Source of the DNA: Cytophagales bacterium
GTDB lineage: Bacteria; Bacteroidota; Bacteroidia; Cytophagales; Bernardetiaceae
NCBI GenBank assembly: GCA_013299045.1
Contig: JAAFJX010000008.1
Coordinates: 62,001 to 126,000, forward strand
DNA: 64,000 bases
Direction: 5' to 3'
In this document: positions 1,445 through 40,115 of the stretch, piece by piece
Layout of the letters: every line of letters starts with the position of its first letter
How positions within the stretch are numbered: the stretch's first letter is position 1
The notes under the pieces: generated by a model
The model's database searches: none
What the model was told of the DNA's origin: nothing
The model's input: the letters and a program-made list of their open reading frames with translations, nothing else
Made by a program: the position numbers and the translations under genes

Positions 1445-4102
1445 ATGGCCAAGCAGACTAAAGAAAGCGATAAGCAAACACCGCTCATGAAGCAGTATGC
1501 TGTTATGAAAGGGCAGTACCCAGATGCCATTTTGCTATTTCGTGTGGGCGATTTTTATGAAATGTTTGGTCAAGATGCAGTTCAGGCCAGTAAGGTTTTG
1601 GATATAGTCCTGACACGGCGCGCCAATGGAGCAGCCTCTTTCGTAGAGCTGGCTGGTTTTCCATATCATGCTTTGGATAACTACCTCCCGCGCCTCGTGC
1701 GGGCGGGTCTGCGTGTGGCCATCTGCGAGCAGCTAGAAGACCCAAAATTGGCGCAAGGTATAGTCAAACGTGGTGTTACCGAACTCATTACACCAGGTCT
1801 TACTATTCACGACAACGTACTTGACACCCGTCAGAACAATTTTTTGGCGGCTCTTTTTTTTGAACCGAGCAGAGAGAGTACATCGCCCAAACGTGGTGGA
1901 GTTGCGTTTTTGGATTTGTCTACAGGCGAATTTTGTGTGTCAGAAGGCAGCATAGAGCAGTTGCTCAAGTTGATTCAGGGCTTTAAACCCTCTGAGTTGA
2001 TTTTTGCAAAAGGTCAGAAGAGTAATATAGAGGCTAATCTTAGTTCGGAGTATCATATTTTTGGCCTTGAGGACTGGTTTTTTACACGTCAGTTTGGATA
2101 TGAAAAGCTAACGACGCATTTCCAAACGCCCAATTTAAAAGGTTTTGGTGCAGAAACACTTCACGAAGGTTTGGCTGCTGCTGGTGCTATCTTACATTAT
2201 TTAGAAAGCACTGAACACAAGGAAATTAGCCATATTACTGGCCTTTCTTTGCTTCAGCAAGACGACTATCTTTGGCTGGACAAGTTCACAATTCGTAACC
2301 TAGAGTTGGTCAGTACACAACACGATAACGGTGTGCCGCTTATTAAGATATTAGACCAAACAGCAACGGCTATGGGTGCGCGTATGTTGCGGCAATGGCT
2401 TGTATTACCGCTTGCCAAACTTGAGCGTATTCAACACAGGCAGGCCGTGGTTGCTTATTTTTTGGCCAATGAGGCCAATCTAATGAATACCATTTCCTTT
2501 TTGAAAGGCATAGGCGACTTGGAACGCTTAGTTGGTAAAGTGGCAGTGGGCAGAATTAATCCACGCGAAATGCTGCGCCTCTGCAAATCTTTAGAAAATA
2601 CCAAACCCTTGCGTGAACTCCTTACCAATGAACAGAATCCTGAAACGATACAAAGCCTCGGCAAATTGCTAGACCCACTGCCAGAACTGCAAGATTATCT
2701 ACAAAATTTGCTCAAAGACGAAGTGCCGCTTGCTTACAATCAGGGCAATATCATTAGAGAGGGGTTTCATGCCGAACTAGATGAACTGAGGCAGCTTGCT
2801 AACGACGGCAAGGCTGTTTTAGACAAGATACTGGCCAGAGAAATACAAAATACAGGCATTACTAGCCTTAAAATTTCTTACAATAAGGTTTTTGGATACT
2901 ACATTGAGGTTACAAATGCACATAAGAACCGCGTTCCGACCAGTTGGATACGCAAACAGACACTTACTGGTGCAGAACGTTACATTACGGAAGAACTAAA
3001 AATCTACGAAGAGAAGATACTTACTGCCGAAGACCGCAGCACGCAAATAGAAACCCAGCTCTTCCAAGAGGCTTTGCGATTTGCGTTGAAGTTTGTGCCT
3101 CAGATTCAAACGAATGCACGTTGGCTAGCGCTCACGGACGTACTTGCGAGTTTTGCTATTCTGGCGCAAAAAAACAACTATACCCAGCCTCTTCTTAGCG
3201 AAGATTTTAACTTGAATATTTGGGCTGGCAGGCACCCTGTTATAGAACATCAGCTTCCGCCCAATACGCCTTACATACCTAATGATGTTATTTTAGATAC
3301 TGACAAACAGCAAATTATCATTATCACTGGCCCCAATATGGCGGGTAAGTCTGCCCTACTTAGGCAAACAGCATTGATTGTACTGATGGCGCAAATTGGT
3401 TGCTTTGTTCCGGCAGAAAGAGCCGAAATTGGCCTTGTGGACAAGATTTTTACAAGAGTGGGCGCAACCGATAACTTGGCTCAGGGAGAATCTACATTTA
3501 TGGTGGAAATGAGCGAAACGGCTGCTATTATGAACAATTTAAGCAGCAGGAGTCTTGTTTTGATGGACGAGATTGGGCGCGGAACCAGTACCTACGATGG
3601 CATTTCTATCGCATGGGCGCTTGTGGAGTTCTTGCACCAGCATAAGCACAAAGCAAAAACCCTCTTCGCTACGCATTACCACGAACTCAGCCAGTTAGCT
3701 GATAATTTTGAGCGCGTTAAAAACTTCAACGTGGCCGTTAAGGAAATTCAAGACAAAATCATTTTTCTAAGAAAATTGAAGGAAGGAAGTTGTGAGCATA
3801 GCTTTGGCATCAACGTTGCGCAAATTGCGGGAATGCCGCCCCTCATTATAGCCCGCGCTAAAGAGCTAATGACGCATTTTGAAAATAGTAAAATAAAAGA
3901 CGACAGGCTCAGTTTGCTAAAAAGTGTGCCCAAAAATACGCCAGTTCAGGCCAATCTGTTCGCACCCATTGACCTTAATTACAACCGCATCAAAGAAGTG
4001 TTGCGTCTTGTTGATATCAATGCAATTTCGCCTGTAGAAGCACTGTTGAAACTCAATGAGCTGAAGTTTTTGGCCGAAAAGAGCGACCAGCAACCTGTTT
4101 AG
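1445..4102 (+). CDS. mutS: DNA mismatch repair protein MutS
   Basis: 885 residues, normal length for MutS1. It recognises mismatches and small loops and recruits MutL through an ATP-driven clamp. The N-terminal mismatch-binding domain begins PLMKQYAVMKGQYPDAILLF and contains the Phe-x-Glu wedge in GDFYEMFG (about residues 36-43). Connector, lever and clamp domains follow. The C-terminal ABC ATPase has Walker A GPNMAGKSALLRQ (about 630-642) and Walker B LVLMDEIGRGTSTYDG (about 703-718), then the ATHYHEL switch. It is transcribed alone, away from the tRNA-Trp operon, and ends 37 bases before the convergent gldH. Confidence 0.98.
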   Translation: MAKQTKESDKQTPLMKQYAVMKGQYPDAILLFRVGDFYEMFGQDAVQASKVLDIVLTRRANGAASFVELAGFPYHALDNYLPRLVRAGLRVAICEQLEDPKLAQGIVKRGVTELITPGLTIHDNVLDTRQNNFLAALFFEPSRESTSPKRGGVAFLDLSTGEFCVSEGSIEQLLKLIQGFKPSELIFAKGQKSNIEANLSSEYHIFGLEDWFFTRQFGYEKLTTHFQTPNLKGFGAETLHEGLAAAGAILHYLESTEHKEISHITGLSLLQQDDYLWLDKFTIRNLELVSTQHDNGVPLIKILDQTATAMGARMLRQWLVLPLAKLERIQHRQAVVAYFLANEANLMNTISFLKGIGDLERLVGKVAVGRINPREMLRLCKSLENTKPLRELLTNEQNPETIQSLGKLLDPLPELQDYLQNLLKDEVPLAYNQGNIIREGFHAELDELRQLANDGKAVLDKILAREIQNTGITSLKISYNKVFGYYIEVTNAHKNRVPTSWIRKQTLTGAERYITEELKIYEEKILTAEDRSTQIETQLFQEALRFALKFVPQIQTNARWLALTDVLASFAILAQKNNYTQPLLSEDFNLNIWAGRHPVIEHQLPPNTPYIPNDVILDTDKQQIIIITGPNMAGKSALLRQTALIVLMAQIGCFVPAERAEIGLVDKIFTRVGATDNLAQGESTFMVEMSETAAIMNNLSSRSLVLMDEIGRGTSTYDGISIAWALVEFLHQHKHKAKTLFATHYHELSQLADNFERVKNFNVAVKEIQDKIIFLRKLKEGSCEHSFGINVAQIAGMPPLIIARAKELMTHFENSKIKDDRLSLLKSVPKNTPVQANLFAPIDLNYNRIKEVLRLVDINAISPVEALLKLNELKFLAEKSDQQPV

Positions 4103-4138
4103 CGGTTTAGTTGCTCTGCCAACTGTTTTGGCTTCAGT

Positions 4139-4633
4139 TTACTCTGCTTTTTCTAAGGTATAACCAACAGATACCACAGACTGTATGGTATCTGGCCGCA
4201 TATAGTGCTGCACCTCAAATACATAATCGCCCTTACTCGGAAATTTCTGCTCATTCAATAAGTAGAAATGGTTATCATATAAATTGTTGGAATAAGTCTT
4301 GAGCCAACCACCCTGCCCCAGCGGTTCGCCTGTTTTACAGTCTAAAAGCTCTAGCTCTTCGCGTTTTGTAAAAGCAGGTTTTTTATTGCCTTTTTGATAA
4401 ATATTGTAAACAATAAAAAGATTACAAAAACCAAATGACATATCGTGTCGCACATCAAAAAAGAAATTGTATGGCACGTTTTCATCAGTAATCTTGAAAT
4501 CAAAGCTATACTTGGTTTGAGCAGACCATTGCGCGTCGGGCAAGTCCTTTACCTCTGCGGACTCATAGGGGCTATCACAGGCCACCACCAGAATAAGAAG
4601 TATAAAGACCAAGCGAGCTTTTCTGAAAGACAT
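4139..4633 (-). CDS. gldH: Gliding motility lipoprotein GldH
   Basis: 164 residues from the chosen start. The signal peptide MSFRKARLVFILLILVVAC ends in a lipobox (VVAC), so it is a lipoprotein. The body matches GldH in pattern: an early W, FDFKITDENVPYNFFFDVRH, then SFGFCNLFIVYNIY. GldH is needed for gliding and stability of the motility machinery in Flavobacterium; its exact role is unknown. An in-frame start 36 bases upstream (4669) would add 12 residues and sit only 9 bases after the preceding gene's stop. The shorter form gives a more typical lipoprotein signal. It is the second gene of a pair with the DoxX-like gene. Confidence 0.85.
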   Translation of the reverse strand: MSFRKARLVFILLILVVACDSPYESAEVKDLPDAQWSAQTKYSFDFKITDENVPYNFFFDVRHDMSFGFCNLFIVYNIYQKGNKKPAFTKREELELLDCKTGEPLGQGGWLKTYSNNLYDNHFYLLNEQKFPSKGDYVFEVQHYMRPDTIQSVVSVGYTLEKAE

Positions 4634-4678
4634 AAATCCGCTTTTAGAAAGGGTTTTAATTGAGAACATAAAAAAAGA

Positions 4679-5830
4679 TTATTGCACAAGCCTAGTAAGT
4701 TCATTAGCCTCTGGTAACTTCCTGAAGCCCCATTTGCCTACAATAAGGCCATCTTTTAAAAGCATGAGACTTGGATTGGCGCGTGTCATCGTCTTTAGCA
4801 GCGTGCCATCTGCCAAAAAAAGTGGAGCAGCCAACTGTACTTCATGCCTAAAAGCTTCCAGTTCACCGCTACCGTCGTCCCATATCATAGCCATAGGTTT
4901 TATGCCATTTTTCTCTGCCTCTGTAACCAACCGATTAATGGCTTGAAATGCCTCTTTGTCCGCTTTTTGAAAATTCGGAATCAGCACAAGAAGTTGTTTG
5001 CCGCGAAGCGAGTCTGCCGAATAGTTCATGCTATCATTAAAAAAAGCAAAGTCCGTAATTTTGGGGGTGGACTCTTCCGGATTAACGGTTATCATTTCTT
5101 TAAATTTATAACTCTTATCCGTAGGATACTGGTCTAGCGTAATGTCTTTACCGTCCTTGGTCATAACGTATCTGAAAATTGGAGGTTTTTCAGGCTTAGA
5201 CTGCTTGATGATGCTTTTACCAACTGCGTAGGGCATTAAGTCAAAGTAAGGCATATACATAACAGCCAAAACAGCCAGAAGGACAGATAAGGCTAAGCCA
5301 CCCAAAGCTGTACTTTGCGTGAGTGGTGTGCTATCATTGCGCATTGTTTTGGGCTGAAATATGAGCACCAGAATCATAACGTCCAGCACAATATCTTTGT
5401 AGAAAGAGTGCCAGGGTTTCAGTTGAATGAGCGTACCAAAGCAGCCACAGTCGCGCACAGCGTCAGTGTAAGCAGAATAAAAAGTTAAAAAGGAAAAGAA
5501 AATCATGAGCAAAAGGAGTAGCCAAAGCACCAAATTGCGTCTATAATTAATCAATAAGGCCAAACCCAGAGCTACCTCAAAGACGCACATCGCTATTCCT
5601 ATAGCTAAAGCAAAAGGCACAAAACCATGAAAAGCAGGGCTTATTCTGTTTGCAAAGACCTCAAAATACTCCTCCATTTTTAGGGCTGTTCCTATTGGGT
5701 CATTAATTTTGACAAGCCCAGAAAACATCATAAAGAGGCTCAGAAGCGTAATGAGCAAATAATTTAAAATTTTTAAGCCTAGCGGTTTGCTGGGGCGGTC
5801 TAAGTCCGAATACAATTCTGCGTCCGTCAT
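4679..5830 (-). CDS. DoxX/MauE-like membrane protein with a C-terminal thioredoxin-like domain
   Basis: 383 residues. The N-terminal half has four or five membrane spans, opening with LITLLSLFMMFSGLVKINDP, which is typical of the BT_3928-type DoxX/MauE-related family of Bacteroidota. A CGCFG motif in the loop near residue 127 resembles the redox cysteine pair of that family. The C-terminal half (about 250-383) resembles a thioredoxin-fold domain, with KQLLVLIPNF and PSLMLLKDGLIVGKWGFRKL, but has no CxxC there. A thiol-redox role is inferred. A TACTTTTG element on the minus strand (5913-5906) may be its -7 box. It is upstream of gldH, probably in one operon. Confidence 0.8.
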   Translation of the reverse strand: MTDAELYSDLDRPSKPLGLKILNYLLITLLSLFMMFSGLVKINDPIGTALKMEEYFEVFANRISPAFHGFVPFALAIGIAMCVFEVALGLALLINYRRNLVLWLLLLLMIFFSFLTFYSAYTDAVRDCGCFGTLIQLKPWHSFYKDIVLDVMILVLIFQPKTMRNDSTPLTQSTALGGLALSVLLAVLAVMYMPYFDLMPYAVGKSIIKQSKPEKPPIFRYVMTKDGKDITLDQYPTDKSYKFKEMITVNPEESTPKITDFAFFNDSMNYSADSLRGKQLLVLIPNFQKADKEAFQAINRLVTEAEKNGIKPMAMIWDDGSGELEAFRHEVQLAAPLFLADGTLLKTMTRANPSLMLLKDGLIVGKWGFRKLPEANELTRLVQ

Positions 5831-6062
5831 GCGCTTGAATCAGTTTTTTTTAGTAAATGCTTGAGCAATAGCTTTAAAATAGCAACGATAGCGCTATATG
5901 TTTTGCAAAAGTAATTATTCAATCAATGAAAGCGAAAAAAAATTTGTCTTTTAACGACTTATTCGCTTTTTATTACGATTTAGTAAGAACCGCGCTTGAT
6001 AAACCAAGCACAATTCAATGCACAGGCCTGTTCATTTCTAGTCTAGTTATGCCCAGCAGGCT

Positions 6063-32113: not shown

Positions 32114-33073
32114 CTAGCCCCAAAGCCAGTATAAAAAAGGCAAAAGCCAGGTGCAAGTCCATGCCCAAAAGGCTTTGTTTTTGTAAAAAATACTGGTGTT
32201 TGGGAACAAAGGAGCTTCGTAAAAATGCAAAACAAGTCCACCCAGTGCATCGATAAGCCCATAAGCCAAAGCTATGAAAAGAATGTAGCCAATGCTACCG
32301 TGTGCCTCTTGAAAACTGTCATGCAGGCAGTAATGCCCCTCTACGCCATAAAAGTAGCGTGTAAAAAAATATTTCCAAACATAGACGGAGCAGGCAGCAT
32401 AAAAACAGGCCATTAAAGCATAAAAAACAGGTTTAGAGCGTTTCAATGCAGCATCAATGCTTATAGCAAGCGCTAAAAAGAGCCAAATGAGCATGACTGT
32501 GCTTGTAAAACTTCCCGCTTCCAGAACGGCATCAAGGTTGCTTATTTTAACAAAGGCTGCACTACAACAAGCAGTCAGAACGTATGGTTCTATTTGGTTA
32601 AAAAACAGAAGACTAAGCCAAAAATCTATCCAAATGAACAGAACCAATGGAAGTAGCCACCAAAACTTGACTGGTGTGAAGGGGTTATGTACAAATTGTG
32701 TGTCAGCGTTTTGCAGGATTGAAAATGGAATAGCAGCTAAAAAAAAAGCTATTTTGGACCAAAGCACCCAGTCGCCATAGGCATTTGTGCCCAGTACCCC
32801 AGCGGCACACATGGCCCCTCGCACAAAGTCCACAAGGGAATGATTGATGAAAAAGATAAAACTCAGAACACTCAAAAACCCTATCCAGATGCCAAATTCT
32901 GCCAACAAAGCCACCAAGAAGGCTTGTCGCTCACGCATGAGTTGTTCAGGGTTGGCTTCGCCTTGCTGCCAATTTTTTAGTTTTAGAAGCGTTGAAACCA
33001 AAGCAGCAGTAAGTAGTAAGGCAGCCCCAAACTGTGTTAATAAAATCCCTAATGCCCGATAATCTGTGAGCAT
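32114..33073 (-). CDS. Polytopic membrane protein of unknown function
   Basis: 319 residues with about seven or eight membrane spans, the first at residues 8-29 (LLTQFGAALLLTAALVSTLL). Recognisable local features are AAGVLGTNAYGDWVLW, FVHNPFTPVKFWWLLPLVLF and QIEPYVLTACCSAAF, the last with a Cys pair inside a membrane-facing stretch. This could reflect a redox or metal role, but I do not recognise the family. It lies 5 bases downstream of the crotonase stop on the same strand, so it is probably co-transcribed. Confidence 0.7.
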   Translation of the reverse strand: MLTDYRALGILLTQFGAALLLTAALVSTLLKLKNWQQGEANPEQLMRERQAFLVALLAEFGIWIGFLSVLSFIFFINHSLVDFVRGAMCAAGVLGTNAYGDWVLWSKIAFFLAAIPFSILQNADTQFVHNPFTPVKFWWLLPLVLFIWIDFWLSLLFFNQIEPYVLTACCSAAFVKISNLDAVLEAGSFTSTVMLIWLFLALAISIDAALKRSKPVFYALMACFYAACSVYVWKYFFTRYFYGVEGHYCLHDSFQEAHGSIGYILFIALAYGLIDALGGLVLHFYEAPLFPNTSIFYKNKAFWAWTCTWLLPFLYWLWG

Positions 33074-33078
33074 TTTGC

Positions 33079-33864
33079 TTATTCGCCTTTGAAGGCTGGG
33101 CTTCGTTTTTCCAAAAAGGCTTTAACGCCCTCTTGATGGTCGTGCGTATAACCGGCCTCGCGTTGTAGCTTCTCTTCTAAGGCGAGCTGCGAAACCAAAT
33201 CATTGTCAAAAGCGGCATTAAGGGCTTTTTTGGTGAGACCAATGGCTCTGGTAGGCAGGGCGGCAAGGTCTTGCGCCAGTTTTTCGGCATACGGCATGAG
33301 GTCTTCGGGCTTGCAAACCTGATAAATCAGCCCCCATTCCAAGGCTTGGGCAGCGGTGAGTTTGTTGCCTAGCATGGTCAAGGCTGTGGCACGCGCCATA
33401 CCCAGAAGGCGCGGGAGTAGGTAAGTGCCGCCGCTATCGGGGATAAGGCCGATTTTGACAAAAGCCTGAATGAAAGAGGCATTCTCGGCTGCCAAAACAA
33501 AGTCGCAGGCCAAGGCCAAATTAGCGCCAGCACCAGCAGCAGTACCATTTACAGCGGCTATGAAGGGTTTTTCTATGCGTCTGATAGCGGCAATAATGGG
33601 GTTATACTGGTCTTTGACAATTTTTCCTAAATCTAGCTTGCTGCCATCGTTTGGGGGCATGGCTTCTGCCAAATCTTGTCCGGCGCAAAAGCCTCTTCCT
33701 TCACCAGTGAGCAGGCTTGCACGGATTTGGTTGTCGCTTTCTATGCGCTCCAGAACCGTTTGAAGTTCTTGTGCCATAGCGCGGTTAAAACTATTCAGTA
33801 CCTGAGGTCGGTTCAGCTTGATGATAGCTAAGCCGTTGTTAATCTTTAAGTTGATGAATTCCAT
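33079..33864 (-). CDS. Enoyl-CoA hydratase/isomerase family protein (PaaG-like)
   Basis: 261 residues from the ATG at 33864. The crotonase fold is complete: the first oxyanion segment is RGFCAGQDLAEA and the second is GTAAGAGANLALACDF. The acid position reads GLIPDSGGTYLLPRLLG, with Asp where PaaG isomerases have their catalytic Asp. The enzyme may therefore shift double bonds or ring-open an epoxide on a phenylacetyl-CoA derivative rather than hydrate short-chain enoyl-CoA. No other paa or beta-oxidation gene is nearby. Two upstream Met codons (33882, 33870) are possible starts but add residues outside the fold. Confidence 0.85.
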   Translation of the reverse strand: MEFINLKINNGLAIIKLNRPQVLNSFNRAMAQELQTVLERIESDNQIRASLLTGEGRGFCAGQDLAEAMPPNDGSKLDLGKIVKDQYNPIIAAIRRIEKPFIAAVNGTAAGAGANLALACDFVLAAENASFIQAFVKIGLIPDSGGTYLLPRLLGMARATALTMLGNKLTAAQALEWGLIYQVCKPEDLMPYAEKLAQDLAALPTRAIGLTKKALNAAFDNDLVSQLALEEKLQREAGYTHDHQEGVKAFLEKRSPAFKGE

Positions 33865-33945
33865 GACCATACTTTTTTGCAAATATACCGAGATTCAAGG
33901 GAATGATGGTGGATTGGGCTAGGAATATTCAGGATAATTCACTCC

Positions 33946-34914
33946 TTACCCAATTTGTTTGCCGCCGAAGAAGGAATCTACAAATTCTTGCTTGTTAAAT
34001 ATTTGCAAATCAGATACTTTCTCGCCTACGCCTATGTATTTAACAGGAATTTTGAATTGGTCGGAAATGCCAATAACCACGCCGCCCTTGGCTGTTCCGT
34101 CCAGTTTTGTAACAGCAATAGAGGTAACTTCGGTGGCCTTGGTAAACTCTTGGGCTTGAATGAAGGCATTTTGGCCTGTGCTACCATCTAGTACTAAAAG
34201 TACCTCGTGTGGCGCATCTGGAATGTGGCGCTGAATAACGCGATTCACCTTAGTCAGTTCGTTCATGAGGTTAATCTTGTTGTGCAAACGACCAGCAGTA
34301 TCAATAATGGCAATATCAGCACCTATCCTGATGGCCTCTTCTACGGTATCGAAGGCTACCGTAGCAGGATGTACGCCCATACCGCGCGATACGACAGGCA
34401 CTTGCACGCGCTCTCCCCACTGCTCTAGTTGCTGCACCGCTGCTGCTCTAAAAGTATCCGCTGCACCTAGAATCACGCTTTTTCCTGCTGCTTTGTACTG
34501 TGCGGCCAACTTGCCTATCGTGGTGGTCTTGCCCACGCCATTTACGCCCACCACCATCAGCACGTAAGGTTTTTTATCGGTTGGTAGCTCAAAGGATTCC
34601 CAATCGCGGGTATTGTTTTCGGCCAAAAGCGCGGCTATTTCTTCGCGAAGAATCTGATTTAATTCACTTGCATTCAAGAATTTATCTTTTGCAACGCGCT
34701 CTTCTATGCGTTTGATGACGCGGATAGTCGTTTGTGTGCCTACATCGCTAGCAATCAGAATATTCTCTAACTCGTCCAGAACTTCCTCATCAATTTTTGA
34801 CTTGCCCAAAACAGCCTTAGACAATTTATCAAAGAAGCCAGCTTTAGATTTCTCTAATCCTTGGTCAAGAGTTTCTTTTTTTTCAGCAGAAAAAATACGC
34901 TTAAAGAAGTTCAT
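33946..34914 (-). CDS. ftsY: Signal recognition particle receptor FtsY
   Basis: 322 residues, essentially the NG core with only a short N-terminal A region. The GTPase motifs are GVNGVGKTTTIGKLA (G1), ADTFRAAAVQQLEQW (G2/insertion box), IIDTAGRLHNK (G3), TKLDGTAKGG (G4) and a closing GVGEKVSDLQIFN. FtsY docks SRP-ribosome complexes at the membrane and hands them to SecYEG. The SRP RNA partner is at 63.28 kb in this window. Transcribed alone; a TATTTTTG element at 34968-34961 may be its -7 box. Confidence 0.97.
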   Translation of the reverse strand: MNFFKRIFSAEKKETLDQGLEKSKAGFFDKLSKAVLGKSKIDEEVLDELENILIASDVGTQTTIRVIKRIEERVAKDKFLNASELNQILREEIAALLAENNTRDWESFELPTDKKPYVLMVVGVNGVGKTTTIGKLAAQYKAAGKSVILGAADTFRAAAVQQLEQWGERVQVPVVSRGMGVHPATVAFDTVEEAIRIGADIAIIDTAGRLHNKINLMNELTKVNRVIQRHIPDAPHEVLLVLDGSTGQNAFIQAQEFTKATEVTSIAVTKLDGTAKGGVVIGISDQFKIPVKYIGVGEKVSDLQIFNKQEFVDSFFGGKQIG

Positions 34915-35397
34915 ATTATGCTTTTAGGGAATTAGGACAGTGGCGAATACCATTGCAACGCAAAAATAGCACTTTATTCACAAACAATAGAAGCATTGCG
35001 GTTTTATTCGCAAAATAATTGTGCATTATATGAAATGCCCTTTTTTTATGTCATTCCCAAAATATTTCTCTTCCTTTTGTAGGGTACTAGTTTCAATAAT
35101 TGTTTGCGCTTAGCTCTTCTATTAGGTATGCCTCAAAAATTTCAAAGGTAATGCGTGTGTAGCCATTCTAAGGGCGGCTAAATTCATGCACGGAGTCCTT
35201 AAAAGTATAGCTTTCGCATTCGCGAACTCTCTCAGGAGTGTTAGATTTTTTTTCTTCGAATAAGGCTTGGCGCAGGTGGGGCAATCAAGCACAAAAGCCC
35301 AAAATAAGTACAAATCCCCAGTTATATTCCAAAGTTCAATAAAGCACTTTTACCCCACTTTCCGCCAAGCCCAAGTTGCCTGCCGTTTTTTGTTGGC
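34915..35397. other. Gap between ftsY and the restriction island
   Basis: 483 bases with the ftsY -7 element (34961-34968) and no credible gene. A 63-codon minus-strand frame (35122-35313) lacks protein-like composition. This is the left border of the AT-rich accessory segment. Confidence 0.5.
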
Positions 35398-35836
35398 TTA
35401 GTTCCAGAAGTCTAACAAGTTTTTAATGGCTTCTTGAAATAGTTTTGGGGCTTTGATGCCTAAAATTAACTCGCCATTTTCGTTGAGTAGAAACCCAACT
35501 TCTATTTCAATAATTTCGTTTTCTGTACTTCCATATAACACAACAGTACGTAAAATTTTGAATTTTGGGTAGTATTTTAGGAATGTAGTTTTGTTCTATA
35601 AAATCGTAATTATTGAGTTCCGAAATGCCATCTTTGCGAAATTTATATTTTTTGCCTTCAATATTTATCACTTCATTTCGCCCAAAATCTATTAAAATTA
35701 AGTCGGGAATATGGATAATTTGGTCTTTGTCGCCACTTTTATACTTTGCTTTATCTTTATATTTCGCTAATGGAATTGTTTTGCCTTCTTTTGTAATAAA
35801 ATAACCTTTTTCACTTCCTATATTTGTAATTTGCAT
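35398..35836 (-). pseudogene. Truncated, frameshifted restriction endonuclease (PD-(D/E)XK type)
   Basis: From an ATG at 35836, inside the preceding methyltransferase, the frame encodes a C-terminal nuclease part with IIHIPDLILIDFGRNEVINI followed by EGKKYKF. The PD ... ExK spacing fits the PD-(D/E)XK catalytic core. After IPKI the frame ends in unrelated residues. Dropping one A from a four-A run (35575-35578) restores a continuous end: YYPKFKILRTVVLYGSTEN ... LILGIKAPKLFQEAIKNLLD, stopping at 35398. The N-terminal half is missing, so the gene is dead or at best a fragment. It belongs to the two-methyltransferase system directly upstream. Confidence 0.75.
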
Positions 35837-36698
35837 TTTTAGCAATTTTATACAACTCGGTTAGTCCTGTTTCTGTATTACAGAAATGCGATTTTTGATT
35901 TTCATAATTTCGCATACCTGATACACCTTTTATAATTGGGTTATCGTACTTGGCAATAGTTTCCAATAAATGATAATTTGGTGCATACTGTCGTTGATTA
36001 TAAGGTGGGTCTAAATACAAAATATCAGCCTGAATTTCTGAAATTAATTCAACAGAATTTTGATTAAAAACTTGATTGAGTTTATCATTTTTGATAATTT
36101 CAATAGGTCTTAAAACTAATTTTTTGACTGCTCTTGCATCCCAAATTTTCTGAAATGCTGCATAAACTCCCGAAATATTAGCATAAAAAGGTACAGTTTC
36201 TATCAAGCAAGCCAACAAAATATAATATTCGTTTTCTGTCAATAAACTTTCATCTTTCCACTTTTCAATTTGTATTCTTATAGCATCAATAATATTTCCG
36301 TTTTCATTACTAAAATACATTCTCGGAATTTCTAATTTTTCTGTTCCCTTTGGCGTATAGTTTTCAGAAATAAAACCTTCTTTCGTTTCTATTTTATTCA
36401 AATATTCAACAACTAAGTTTAAATGGTTTGCAAAAAGTGAATTACTTTTTATTTCTATATTTGACAAAAGTTTTTGAAAATTAGGAATTTCATTATTTTT
36501 AATATACGCCTTTTGTAAAACAAAAGAAAAATACAACAAATCAGATGAAAAAATTTGAAAATCTTTTTTCTTAAAAAACTGCCCTACATTACTTGTGCCT
36601 GCAAAAAAATCAAAAAAGGAATTGCCTATAATATTTTTTGATTGCAAAATTTGATAAATTTTTTCTACCAAATTTTCCTTATTTCCAATAAATCTCAT
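35811..36698 (-). CDS. Adenine-N6 DNA methyltransferase (D12 class), probably C-terminally truncated
   Basis: 295 residues. Motif X-like MRFIGNKENLVEKIY, motif I SFFDFFAGTSNVGQFF (about residues 27-42) and motif IV DILYLDPPYNQRQYAPNYHL (about 225-245) are intact. Relatives (FokI-like D12 enzymes) continue after the segment equivalent to KNANYKY with a conserved SYNNEG-type strand and about 80 more residues. Here the frame ends two codons after KNANYKY. It runs out of frame into the endonuclease fragment, so a deletion probably removed both ends. Activity is doubtful. Its ATG directly follows the TAA of the first methyltransferase. Strongly AT-rich. Confidence 0.85.
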   Translation of the reverse strand: MRFIGNKENLVEKIYQILQSKNIIGNSFFDFFAGTSNVGQFFKKKDFQIFSSDLLYFSFVLQKAYIKNNEIPNFQKLLSNIEIKSNSLFANHLNLVVEYLNKIETKEGFISENYTPKGTEKLEIPRMYFSNENGNIIDAIRIQIEKWKDESLLTENEYYILLACLIETVPFYANISGVYAAFQKIWDARAVKKLVLRPIEIIKNDKLNQVFNQNSVELISEIQADILYLDPPYNQRQYAPNYHLLETIAKYDNPIIKGVSGMRNYENQKSHFCNTETGLTELYKIAKNANYKYRK

Positions 36699-37619
36699 TT
36701 AATCAAATAAAGTTTTAGGTTTTTCAATTTCATAATTTGTTATCAAGACTTCCACACTTGCGTCTTTATTTCTCACAAGTGTTTGATAATTTGAATTTGC
36801 ATAGTTGGTTTGAATATAATTGACTTTCAAGTAATCATTTTTGTCTATCCAATTTTGCAAAACTTCATTTTCTTTCCCTTTGTGTGCTAATACATTTGAC
36901 AAAGCAAATTTTATTTTCTGTGAGTGCAAATTATCTAAAATTTTTAACAGTCTATATTCTTCTGTTTCATTCCAACCTGTAAAACCACGTTTTCCGTCAT
37001 TGTAAGTGCCTGTTGTAATCAAATATGGCGGGTCGCAATATACAAAATCATTTTCTGTTAAAAATGACAAATCAAATTTATGAAAATCAAAACAAGTAAA
37101 TTCAGTAATATTATTTTGAATTTTACGAACAAAATGAACTAAATTAGACTTCATTGTGTCATTAAAACTACTTCTTTCACGCCCAAAAGGATTGTTAAAT
37201 TCGTGGGAATTGTTAAAACGGATTTGATGATTAAAAGAGTAGGCAATTAACACAAATAAATCTAATGGGTTTTTATGCGTGTTGTAATGCTGACGAAATT
37301 CTTTGTAGCCTTCTTCATTTGTCAAAGACAATTCAAATACATTTATTTGATTTTCAATGTGTTGTAAAATTTCAATTAAATTATTTTGTTGAAATTGCTG
37401 GTACATTTCTACCAAAAACTTCAAATTATCATTACAAATTGTTCTTTCTGCTTTTACATTCAAGCCCACATTGCAACCACCTGCAAATAAATCAACAAAA
37501 GTGCTTATTTCTTTCGGAAATAAGGGCAAAAGTTGGTCTAATAATTTAGACTTTCCACCAATATAGTTTAAAGGGGATTTTACTGTTCTTAGGTTTTGTT
37601 TTTCTGCCAATGTCTGCAT
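36699..37619 (-). CDS. Adenine-N6 DNA methyltransferase (D12 class), intact
   Basis: 306 residues from the ATG at 37619. It shows KSPLNYIGGKSKLLDQLLPL (motif X), FVDLFAGGCNVGLNV (motif I, about 43-57) and FVYCDPPYLITTGTYNDGKR (motif IV, about 190-210). KFALSNVLAHKGKENEV and a full C-terminus follow. Two adjacent adenine methyltransferases with one endonuclease typically protect an asymmetric site, one strand each, as in type IIS systems; the site cannot be read from sequence. A TATCTTTG -7 element on the minus strand (37642-37635) sits just upstream, so the pair may have its own promoter. AT-rich, consistent with transfer. Confidence 0.92.
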   Translation of the reverse strand: MQTLAEKQNLRTVKSPLNYIGGKSKLLDQLLPLFPKEISTFVDLFAGGCNVGLNVKAERTICNDNLKFLVEMYQQFQQNNLIEILQHIENQINVFELSLTNEEGYKEFRQHYNTHKNPLDLFVLIAYSFNHQIRFNNSHEFNNPFGRERSSFNDTMKSNLVHFVRKIQNNITEFTCFDFHKFDLSFLTENDFVYCDPPYLITTGTYNDGKRGFTGWNETEEYRLLKILDNLHSQKIKFALSNVLAHKGKENEVLQNWIDKNDYLKVNYIQTNYANSNYQTLVRNKDASVEVLITNYEIEKPKTLFD

Positions 37620-37683
37620 TTTCTTTGTTTTTTGCAAAGATAAATATTTTTTACGACATAGTTTTATGATGTTTCGGTTTTTC

Positions 37684-37956
37684 TTAAAATGGCAGGCAAC
37701 GGTTGTATTTGCGCAATTTTTCTATCAAATCCATTTTAGAGATTTGAATAAAATCATCACAACTTACACTCACTCCGTTGTCAAACAGATATCGCCAAGT
37801 ATAGGTATCTGTTTCTGGATAGTAAGTAACTTCAAAGCCACCACGTGTGTATCCGCTCCACATACCACCTTCCCAGTCGTCATAATGGTCGCATTGGTGG
37901 TTTCTTGATGCGTCATGTAGAGCATCAAATATCCATTTTATTTCTTCTTCAGGCAT
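37684..37956 (-). CDS. Small hypothetical protein, paralog A of a tandem pair
   Basis: 90 residues, rich in aromatic and acidic residues, no signal peptide. It shares with the upstream gene the pattern EExIKWI at the start, W(E/G)GxM then GY, ExTYxPETxTYxW in the middle and a C-terminal (D/E)xIEKL. The two are tandem duplicates. It ends about 47 bases before the -7 element and start of the methyltransferase genes. Possible roles include an immunity or accessory protein for the restriction island, but nothing in the sequence proves a function. Confidence 0.7.
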   Translation of the reverse strand: MPEEEIKWIFDALHDASRNHQCDHYDDWEGGMWSGYTRGGFEVTYYPETDTYTWRYLFDNGVSVSCDDFIQISKMDLIEKLRKYNRCLPF

Positions 37957-37960
37957 AGTT

Positions 37961-38221
37961 TTAATCTTTTTTTATTGCCTGCAATTTTTCTATCACTTCT
38001 GCTTCTGTGAGTTGGAAAGATTCCACGCTTCTAAAACCAACACCCACGTCTTCGGTGTCGTCCCACCGATAAGTCCCTGTTTCGGGATTGTAGGTTATCT
38101 CATAACCCCAAGCCATAGAACCACCCCATGTATCAGCAGAGGAGTTTGTAGCCTCTCCGTATTGGTGTGAGGGGTATTTGTGGATTAATTCCAAAATCCA
38201 TTTTATTCGTTCTTCAGTCAT
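37961..38221 (-). CDS. Small hypothetical protein, paralog B of a tandem pair
   Basis: 86 residues. It aligns along its length with the downstream neighbour: TEERIKWILELIH, WGGSMAWGYEITYNPETGTY and TEAEVIEKLQ match the other's EEEIKWIFDALH, GYTRGGFEVTYYPETDTYTW and KMDLIEKLRK. The two genes are 4 bases apart and surely co-transcribed. No helix-turn-helix is present, so it is not a classical restriction control protein. Soluble; function unknown. Size and duplication resemble immunity-protein clusters. Confidence 0.7.
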   Translation of the reverse strand: MTEERIKWILELIHKYPSHQYGEATNSSADTWGGSMAWGYEITYNPETGTYRWDDTEDVGVGFRSVESFQLTEAEVIEKLQAIKKD

Positions 38222-38316
38222 TTCTTTAGTTGTTTTAGGTTAATTTTTTGGGGATTGCTAGTATTTGTATATTTGAGAATAGATTGTAAATTGGCTCTTC
38301 AAATCTAAAACAATTT

Positions 38317-38990
38317 ATGGAAACGTGCAAAAAATGTTCTTCAAAGGATACCCACAAATTCGGATTTGCTCGCGGCAAACAACGTTATAAATGCAGAAGT
38401 TGTGGTATCAGTTTTACGCTTGGTGATAGGCGAAATCTTCGTGCTAAACCTCTGCATATCAAGAATATTGCCATTCAGCTTTATCAATTAGGTTTAGGTT
38501 TTCGTGCCATTGGGAAGTTCCTGAACGTGAGCAATGTTTCCGTTTTGTACTGGGTAAGAAAAGCGGCTGAACAGATACCAACAATAGAAAATCCGCTTTC
38601 CATTCGTGTCATGGCAATAGATGAAATGTGGCATTATTGTCAAAAAAAAGAAAAGTATGGCTCTGGTTGCCAATTTGTCGTGATAACAAACGAATTCTTG
38701 TCTTTGAACTGTGATGCAGAGGTCTGAAAACAGCAAAAATTATGGGAAAAAATTAAAGATATTCCATGTAAACAGTACTGCACAGACCACTGAGAGGTGT
38801 ATCAAAAGTTTACCCCAGCCGACAAGCACAGGCGCTCAAAATCGCAAACATACACCATAGAGTCTTACAATACCCTTTTAGGCATTATCTGGTACGTTTC
38901 CATAGAAAAACTAAATGCTATTCTGAAAAAATAATCAGCACTTTGTCCGTCGGTATTTACATCGTTGATGTGCGGAACGGCCCAAAATAG
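38317..38990 (+). pseudogene. Decayed IS1-family transposase
   Basis: The first 136 codons are intact: a zinc ribbon (CKKCSSKDTHKFGFARGKQR then CRSC), an HTH (GFRAIGKFLNVSNVSVLYWV) and the DDE start VMAIDEMWHYC. At an eight-A run (38642-38649) the frame is lost; shifting by one base continues as VWLWLPICRDNKRILVFEL, then a stop. Later frames give QTYTIESYN and FRHYLVRFHRKTKCYSEK, the IS1 C-terminal signature, ending near 38990. At least three disruptions make it nonfunctional. Terminal inverted repeats are not evident. A TATATTTG with an upstream TTTG (38247-38275) may be its old promoter. Confidence 0.85.
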
Positions 38991-39040
38991 AGTATCTGCG
39001 CTTGAACGTGGAATAATCTATATTAATTTCATTATTAATC

Positions 39041-39077
39041 CTTTACAAAGTTATTCATGCTTTGTAAAGTTTTTTTT
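39041..39077 (+). terminator. Strong intrinsic terminator at the right border of the island
   Basis: CTTTACAAAG (39041-39050) pairs perfectly with CTTTGTAAAG (39060-39069), followed by eight Ts. It would insulate the next gene from transcription out of the transposon remnant. Confidence 0.9.
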
Positions 39078-39173
39078 GATGCGGAAACCCCACAGAATAA
39101 ACCAATAATTTTTTTTTTTCGTTTAAAATACATAACTTTCCGATGAGTTAATAAGTTTCACCACAAAAACTTG

Positions 39174-40115
39174 ATGATTATGACTTGGCGCGCTATTATT
39201 TTTGTTCTAACGATTTTGCCCTTTGTAGGAATTTCTTGTACCAAAGAGGTAGGTAGCGAAATGCCCGAAAACCCCTACCTTAAAATTGATTATTCAGACA
39301 CGCTCCCCATACCAGCGGAACTGCTTGACCCCAATACCATTGAGGGCTTACACCAGACGCTTTTCAAAAATCGTTGTGCCGTACCCGCCTGCCACGACGG
39401 TGCCTTTGAGCCAGACTTCCGCACCGTACAGAGCAGTTATAGCACATTGGTTTATCACCCAATTACCAAAAATAACACTGCCCAAGAATTTACTTTCAGA
39501 GTAGTTCCCTTCAGTACCCAAAAATCTGTTTTGCACGAACGACTTACCAACTGTTGCTTTGTGAATGAAAATGACCGTATGCCCCAAGATAATATTGGTA
39601 AACCGCTTGAAGACAAGTATATCAATGCAGTCAAGGCTTGGATTAACAAGGGCGCACCCGATATGTTTGGTAACGTTAATCTGTTTCCGAACCTGCAGCC
39701 TATTATGCGTTATCACTTCTGCGTTAATGAGGACTTTACAGGAAACCTGGGAGCAACAGAGAATCGTTTTGAAGATTACAAAGCCTTCAAACTGGAAGAT
39801 GATAAGCGTTATCGTCTTTTCTTTGTGGCTGATGATGATAGCAGCCAAGTGGCTGATTTTTCAAAGTGCCGCATTGAAGTATCCGAAGACGCACTCAACT
39901 TTGCCTCTGCGCGTAAAATTCCTTCGGAATATTTTAAATCAGGCGATTTTGAAGCATGGCAGAGCATCATTGATACGAGTGTTTTGCCTAAGGGGCGAGT
40001 GCTTTACTTCAGAATTTACATCAATGACGGCGACCACAAAGACGATACTGAATTGCCTAGTAAAAACAGCCCGTCCTATTTCTTTGATTACTACTCGTTC
40101 TATATTATGCCGTAA
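39174..40115 (+). CDS. Lipoprotein with a CxxxCH-like motif
   Basis: 313 residues from the ATG at 39174. The signal peptide ends in FVGISC, a lipobox. Near residue 70 the sequence KNRCAVPACHDGAFEPDF resembles the single-haem motif region of planctomycete-type cytochrome domains, though the spacing CAVPACH has four residues between the cysteines rather than two. RMPQDNIGKPL further on (MPxD-like) also fits such domains, where a Met could be a distal ligand. The second half (180-313) looks beta-rich and has no known motif. Haem binding is possible but unproven. It stands alone. Confidence 0.72.
   Translation: MIMTWRAIIFVLTILPFVGISCTKEVGSEMPENPYLKIDYSDTLPIPAELLDPNTIEGLHQTLFKNRCAVPACHDGAFEPDFRTVQSSYSTLVYHPITKNNTAQEFTFRVVPFSTQKSVLHERLTNCCFVNENDRMPQDNIGKPLEDKYINAVKAWINKGAPDMFGNVNLFPNLQPIMRYHFCVNEDFTGNLGATENRFEDYKAFKLEDDKRYRLFFVADDDSSQVADFSKCRIEVSEDALNFASARKIPSEYFKSGDFEAWQSIIDTSVLPKGRVLYFRIYINDGDHKDDTELPSKNSPSYFFDYYSFYIMP

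Follow-up and report, generated by a model that had tools for sequence, protein, structure and literature searches.

The window (64,000 nucleotides of the Cytophagales bacterium, family Bernardetiaceae, assembly GCA_013299045.1, contig JAAFJX010000008.1, positions 62,001 to 126,000) carries on its minus strand, in transcription order, a first adenine methyltransferase (M1), a second one (M2), and a piece of a restriction endonuclease (R). Very probably, these are what is left of a recently decayed M1-M2-R operon of Type IIS/IIT, from which one deletion of about 1.15 kb has spared M1. The features of the locus are:

36699..37616, minus strand: M1, an intact D12-class N6-adenine DNA methyltransferase of 305 aa
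35811..36698, minus strand: M2, a D12-class adenine methyltransferase of 295 aa, cut at residue 293 (then RK and a stop)
35819..35820, unstranded: deletion junction; 1,155 bp of L001 are absent between these two bases
35398..35819, minus strand: R remnant, from residue ~322 to the end of a 462-aa endonuclease
35590 (approximate), minus strand: extra base in the R remnant, from the DNA alignment with L001, L002, L005, L006, and L060
37617..37645, minus strand: leader or promoter-like stretch 5' of M1, from by-eye comparison with L001

A search of genome contigs yields 21 loci with a relative of M2, mostly from Cytophagales and other Bacteroidota; 18 of them (L001-L018) also hold R sequence. In L001, the nearest relative of the window both by identity and in the M1 and M2 trees, M1, M2 (353 aa), and R (462 aa) stand side by side, each complete, and the genome G003 from the same family likewise has open frames, with 353 residues in M2 and 463 in R. 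Compared by blastn, the alignment breaks at window position 35820|35819 (query 1941/1942) in L001, L002, L004, L005, and L023, and one base off on the R side (query 1941/1943) in L006 and L009; since L023 is identical in sequence to L005, which is from Raineya orbicola, the breakpoint is supported by six distinct loci, whose unbroken M2-R stretches fix it to one base pair, plus or minus one. In more distant loci the break falls a few to some 20 bases from this point. From base 35819 downward, the window encodes R from residue 322 onward, in a frame other than that of M2. Between the two aligned blocks, the five distinct loci without cargo genes have 1,144-1,158 bp (1,155 in L001, 1,146 in L005 and L009, 1,144 in L006, 1,158 in L002); L004 (3,815 bp) and G003 (3,923 bp) carry a cargo gene in this interval, hence their larger distances. 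One pair of breakpoints, and thus one deletion, accounts for the truncation of both M2 and R. This is the single internal deletion across the M2-R junction that the first-pass annotation of this DNA had proposed, and the segments it expected intact loci to hold are present there and contiguous. Measured on L001, the event cost M2 its last ~60 codons and R its first ~321. Microhomology and short repeats flanking the deletion were looked for and rejected: no shared bases are seen across the junction, and no 7-mer repeats lie within 40 bp of the ends in L001, L002, and L005.

M2 matches the Pfam family PF02086 with 119.4 bits (cut-off 22), the match stopping at profile position 228 of 253; among the PADLOC profiles, it covers positions 1-278 of 646 in PDLC03287 and 13-283 of 343 in PDLC03257. 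It ends in AKNANYKY-RK-stop after 295 residues, its relatives after ~353. That M2 stops after KNANYKY, where relatives enter a SYNNEG-like strand, had already been noted, and the alignment bears this out: all 14 relatives in alignment A2 (14 of the 21 M2 loci, leaving out L007, L009, and L017-L021) run past the stop into xxSYNxEG and ~50 further residues. With ~60 C-terminal residues of its relatives absent, M2 does not have a complete catalytic domain. On a structure model of L001 M2 (pLDDT 77.0, pTM 0.79), the cut lies inside the strand formed by residues 290-299 and takes away the helix at 306-314 and the strands at 317-329 and 340-352; methyltransferase folds align to this model through residue 353, covering the removed part, and as modelled the truncated M2 should not fold.

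R has suffered more. Residues 1-321 of 462 (~70%) are missing and the last ~140 codons are kept, residues 322-410 being read in a different frame from those that follow: near 35590 the remnant has one base more than five of five aligned relatives (L001, L002, L005, L006, L060), which puts the last ~50 codons out of frame. This one-base insertion could have arisen before or after the deletion. The C-terminal PD...EGK site is retained (codons around 35707 and 35659), and the remnant matches the PADLOC profile REase_II PDLC03445 weakly (E 0.00045). R had been described as an endonuclease read in another frame and lacking its N-terminal half; the frame is as described, the loss is larger than half (321 of 462 residues). 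A second copy of R that might rescue the function was sought and rejected, no other piece of R being found in the bacterium's own genome, which is 99.8% complete. There is thus no full-length open endonuclease gene, and restriction by the window locus is excluded on sequence grounds.

Both lesions could in principle be artefacts of assembly or sequencing, hiding an intact operon in the strain, as the source assembly is a draft of 79 contigs that could hold a misjoin or a false indel, and one of the lesions is a single-base indel; this is very unlikely, however, because the junction is clean and lies within one contig, the genome is only 0.01% contaminated besides being nearly complete, and the missing R segment does not turn up elsewhere in it. 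Still harder to credit, and close to negligible, is the notion that M2 and R still function at their present short lengths, for example as a mini-methylase and as a one-domain nickase made from the 109-112 aa ORF at 35845/35836-35507. Although this ORF keeps the C-terminal PD...EGK site, it leaves the R frame near 35590 and so lacks the strands and helix that close the domain, M2 loses core strands, and no relative with such short M2 or R lengths is found: none of the 21 loci has M2 cut at this place (in L017 it is truncated elsewhere, at 195), and among 390 genomes of the order, an R of this short length occurs in none but the window's own. An intact homolog with equally short M2 and R, named in the first-pass annotation as the finding that would overturn it, is thus not among them.

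M1, described at the outset as intact, is indeed full length, conserved, and without lesion. It has a complete PF02086 catalytic domain (147.5 bits, cut-off 22, profile positions 1-250 of 253) and covers positions 347-642 of 646 in the PADLOC MTase_II profile PDLC03287. Its best start, by agreement with relatives, is the ATG at 37616, giving 305 aa; a 312-aa ORF begins at the TTG at 37637. Apart from one match barely above the cut-off (22.7 bits), their own genome holds no D12 methylase besides M1 and M2. M1 is probably still made, and solitary methylation of one strand of the former target is plausible.

The coding sequences that remain give no clear sign of relaxed selection on either M1 or the retained M2 codons. 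Compared with L001, M1 has a dN/dS of 0.18 and the retained M2 one of 0.16; comparison with the other relatives gives 0.08-0.14, and L001 compared with L005 gives 0.08 and 0.09, with dS above 1 and thus near saturation. As the values of the window against L001 are about twice those of L001 against L005, slight relaxation is possible. Invariant alignment columns are broken in 5 of 202 cases in M1 and 4 of 200 in M2, compared to 0-5 and 2-8 in four control rows. Since the remainder of M2 carries no sign of drift, the deletion looks recent on these sequences. For the same reason, conservation of M1 is by itself no proof of its use, the M2 remainder being just as conserved. This parity, in a remainder that presumably does not work (4 of 200 broken columns, against 5 of 202), speaks for the most serious alternative, namely that the whole locus is dead, that M1 is open only because decay is recent, and that no motif is methylated. 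We consider this a substantial possibility, if one that falls short of even chances; M1, however, has no lesion, keeps the leader it has in common with L001, and has an open frame in L003, L017, and L018, which are likewise broken.

The leader, at 37617-37645, is by eye near-identical in L001, and past it the two loci diverge; it is the probable left edge of the cassette and contains the motif TAnnTTTG, which may be part of a promoter. GC content is 0.23-0.29 in the M1-M2 region, compared to 0.35-0.53 in its neighbours (500-bp windows), which would fit an acquired cassette. Of the window's genes, only ftsY is matched in the 18 kb compared in the same-genus genome G001, so that no empty site can be defined, and no RNA elements reach gathering thresholds in 33000-40000. 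Upstream of the cassette, a broken IS1-family transposase lies at 38317-38727 (a 136-aa ORF that covers the N-terminal part and scores below the NCBIfam cut-off), and two adjoining ORFs of 90 and 86 aa at 37684-38221 resemble paralogs on visual inspection, neither matching a family above cut-off.

What R was before the deletion can be judged from its intact relatives. The intact copies searched reach no cut-off in Pfam or NCBIfam and match one PADLOC restriction-enzyme profile, PDLC03445; three plasmid records found label R as 'hypothetical protein'. The model of L001 R (pLDDT 81.8, pTM 0.85), however, has the two-domain overall fold of the BsmI/Mva1269I/BtsCI type: VIA-align superimposes residues 2-461 on BsmI (PDB 9f38) with a Z-score of 13.4 and an rmsd of 4.7 over 404 aligned residues, and the top four rows are all BsmI entries (the three further ones at Z 11.8-12.6), the first other protein following at 6.1. 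This offers a predicted BsmI-like fold for an endonuclease family whose searched copies have no Pfam or NCBIfam assignment. Foldseek by itself returns no match for the model at E <= 0.001, hmmsearch of alignment A1 against PDB sequences finds no similarity between R and BsmI at E <= 10, and neither R nor M2 has a meaningful link by sequence to a solved structure; the two-site mechanism therefore rests on the predicted fold and on one aligner. In the 12 rows of A1, D79, E100-E101, and K103 are conserved, as are P361-D362, E377, and K379, and these residues suggest two PD-(D/E)XK-like nuclease sites. Intact R would thus be, as we infer from the model, a single-chain endonuclease with two catalytic sites, each domain cutting one strand near an asymmetric site. 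Since the predicted fold matches BsmI over almost the whole length of R, the ancestral system was most likely of Type IIS/IIT, with one methylase specific to each strand.

Such an ancestor has several parallels. BsmI, which we take to be a Type IIS enzyme, resembles R in the fold of the L001 model, and PDB titles list BsmI mutants that nick the top or the bottom strand; it differs in its length of about 670 aa, against 462 for R, and in the lack of any sequence match. Compared with BsmI, Mva1269I, and BtsCI, the R copy of the window keeps the C-terminal domain only, and this frameshifted. For Mva1269I and BtsCI, passages of PMC4081073 and PMC6097692 describe two catalytic sites in one chain, and passages of the former, a review, state that Type IIS enzymes are usually accompanied by two methylases, one per strand and sometimes fused. 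An R accompanied by two adenine methylases, each serving one strand of an asymmetric site, is also described in passages on the SfaNI-like system of Caldicellulosiruptor (PMC9799307) and on MhoVII (PMC12898733); both are like the present system in this respect, and differ from it in that the endonuclease of the first is placed in the AlwI family and the methylases of the second are fused, one of them being of the YhdJ class. The ancestral layout seen in relatives, with two adjacent methylases beside an endonuclease, survives in the window as M1, a partial M2, and a remnant of R.

A single PADLOC profile of 646 positions, PDLC03287, spans both methylases, M2 fitting its first half and M1 its second. 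We presume this profile to be of the FokI type, in which D12 methylases are fused, though the profile itself carries no enzyme name; the window differs in having two separate genes in the order M1-M2 and an R whose predicted fold is BsmI-like. A Psychrobacter plasmid encodes a fused protein of 664 aa, M2-like and then M1-like (39% and 42% identity), beside an R of 59% identity, whereas a Bartonella plasmid has M1, M2, and R as three genes. The asymmetric, type IIS-like target that the first-pass annotation had conjectured from two neighbouring adenine methylases thus gains support from the two halves of the profile, the fused Psychrobacter protein, and the predicted fold of R. By resemblance to FokI and BtsCI, GGATG may be considered as a candidate target.

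In the ancestor, each methylase would have protected one strand. The deletion would have taken the whole N-terminal domain of R, with the first of the proposed nuclease sites, together with the last β-strands of M2, so that, by the models, neither protein should function. With R and M2 disabled at once, losing protection would have done no harm; joint loss of part of R and of one methylase avoids the danger of an unprotected target. M1 may go on to methylate one strand of the former target, leaving permanently hemimethylated sites without restriction, and if it is active, the strain would be a natural test bed for strand-asymmetric marking. Decay of restriction-modification systems, treated in passages of PMC6789123, is an ordinary kind of event, here clearly documented by intact relatives; the window offers an unusually clear and apparently recent case of a two-methylase system lost in one step.

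This system has decayed repeatedly within its order. Of 390 genomes from that order, 13 have a match to R at E 1e-8; seven of these have a full-length open R and six, the window's genome included, only a broken or partial one, counts that are not independent of the 21 loci, as at least seven loci (L042, L044, L045, L047, L048, L052, L059) are repeats. In 395 genomes spread over the phylum, matches at E 1e-6 are confined to the window's genome and one other. The broken ones among the 18 loci with R differ in their lesions: R residues 26-407 are missing in L003, with M2 intact; M2 is cut at 195 and R resumes from 431 in L017; L018 has a frameshift in M2 and a deletion in R; and L013 has a stop after 138 codons. 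In L004 and L007, R runs off the contig. To the first-pass annotation, which was right in its observation and largely right in its interpretation, the analysis adds the junction at base level, the second lesion of R, the BsmI-like predicted fold, and this recurrent decay.

In some loci, the interval between M2 and R holds a cargo gene:

L004:3083-5740 (T. ruber): 885 aa, resembling PIN and Mrr on visual inspection alone, without a family match
L060:4456-7212 (G003): 918 aa, weak TOPRIM matches
L018:5062-5598: 178 aa
L040:3533-4936 (Psychrobacter plasmid): R paralog

In L017, an AAA ATPase and a second gene (3574-5967) separate residue 195 of M2 from residue 431 of R; their best PADLOC matches are to PD-T4-4 A, a strong one, and to PD-T4-4 B, a weak one (E 0.0002), and another defence-like pair is thus placed in the middle of a broken system. 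Elsewhere, 3' tails of R occur without the head, each roughly 100 bp long:

L053:1504-1605: beside unrelated genes
L054:1585-1689: beside unrelated genes
L057:1498-1632: beside unrelated genes
L059:1501-1593: same as the L017 locus

With probes of 60-62 aa, the R head is matched in 9 and the R tail in 14 of 390 genomes. A tail without a head is found at seven places, the window included, and a head without a tail at none, head-only remnants being absent from the 390 genomes (7:0, two-sided 0.016); the headless copy G136:C259 is left out of this count, as a transposase-like ORF, identified by reading, precedes it. The pattern is a lead only, because the test is post hoc, G147:C548 and G185:C76 are weak, and G060 and G136 belong to one genus. 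It would accord with a modular island, in which the M2-R interval and the 3' end of R are recurrent recombination points, cargo being inserted or swapped at these points and the last ~100 bp of R tending to stay behind as a scar; the deletion in the window, leaving a lone strand-specific methylase, would then be one instance. We regard this broader scheme as speculative and rather improbable.

By eye, the R tail of L053 directly follows what appear to be the closing codons of M1 and the opening codons of M2. A relative of R with 45% identity (L041:3998-5389) occurs in the Streptococcus phages Javan102, Javan105, Javan108, and Javan112; in Javan105, it adjoins a gene annotated as RloC, with methylases on the other strand.
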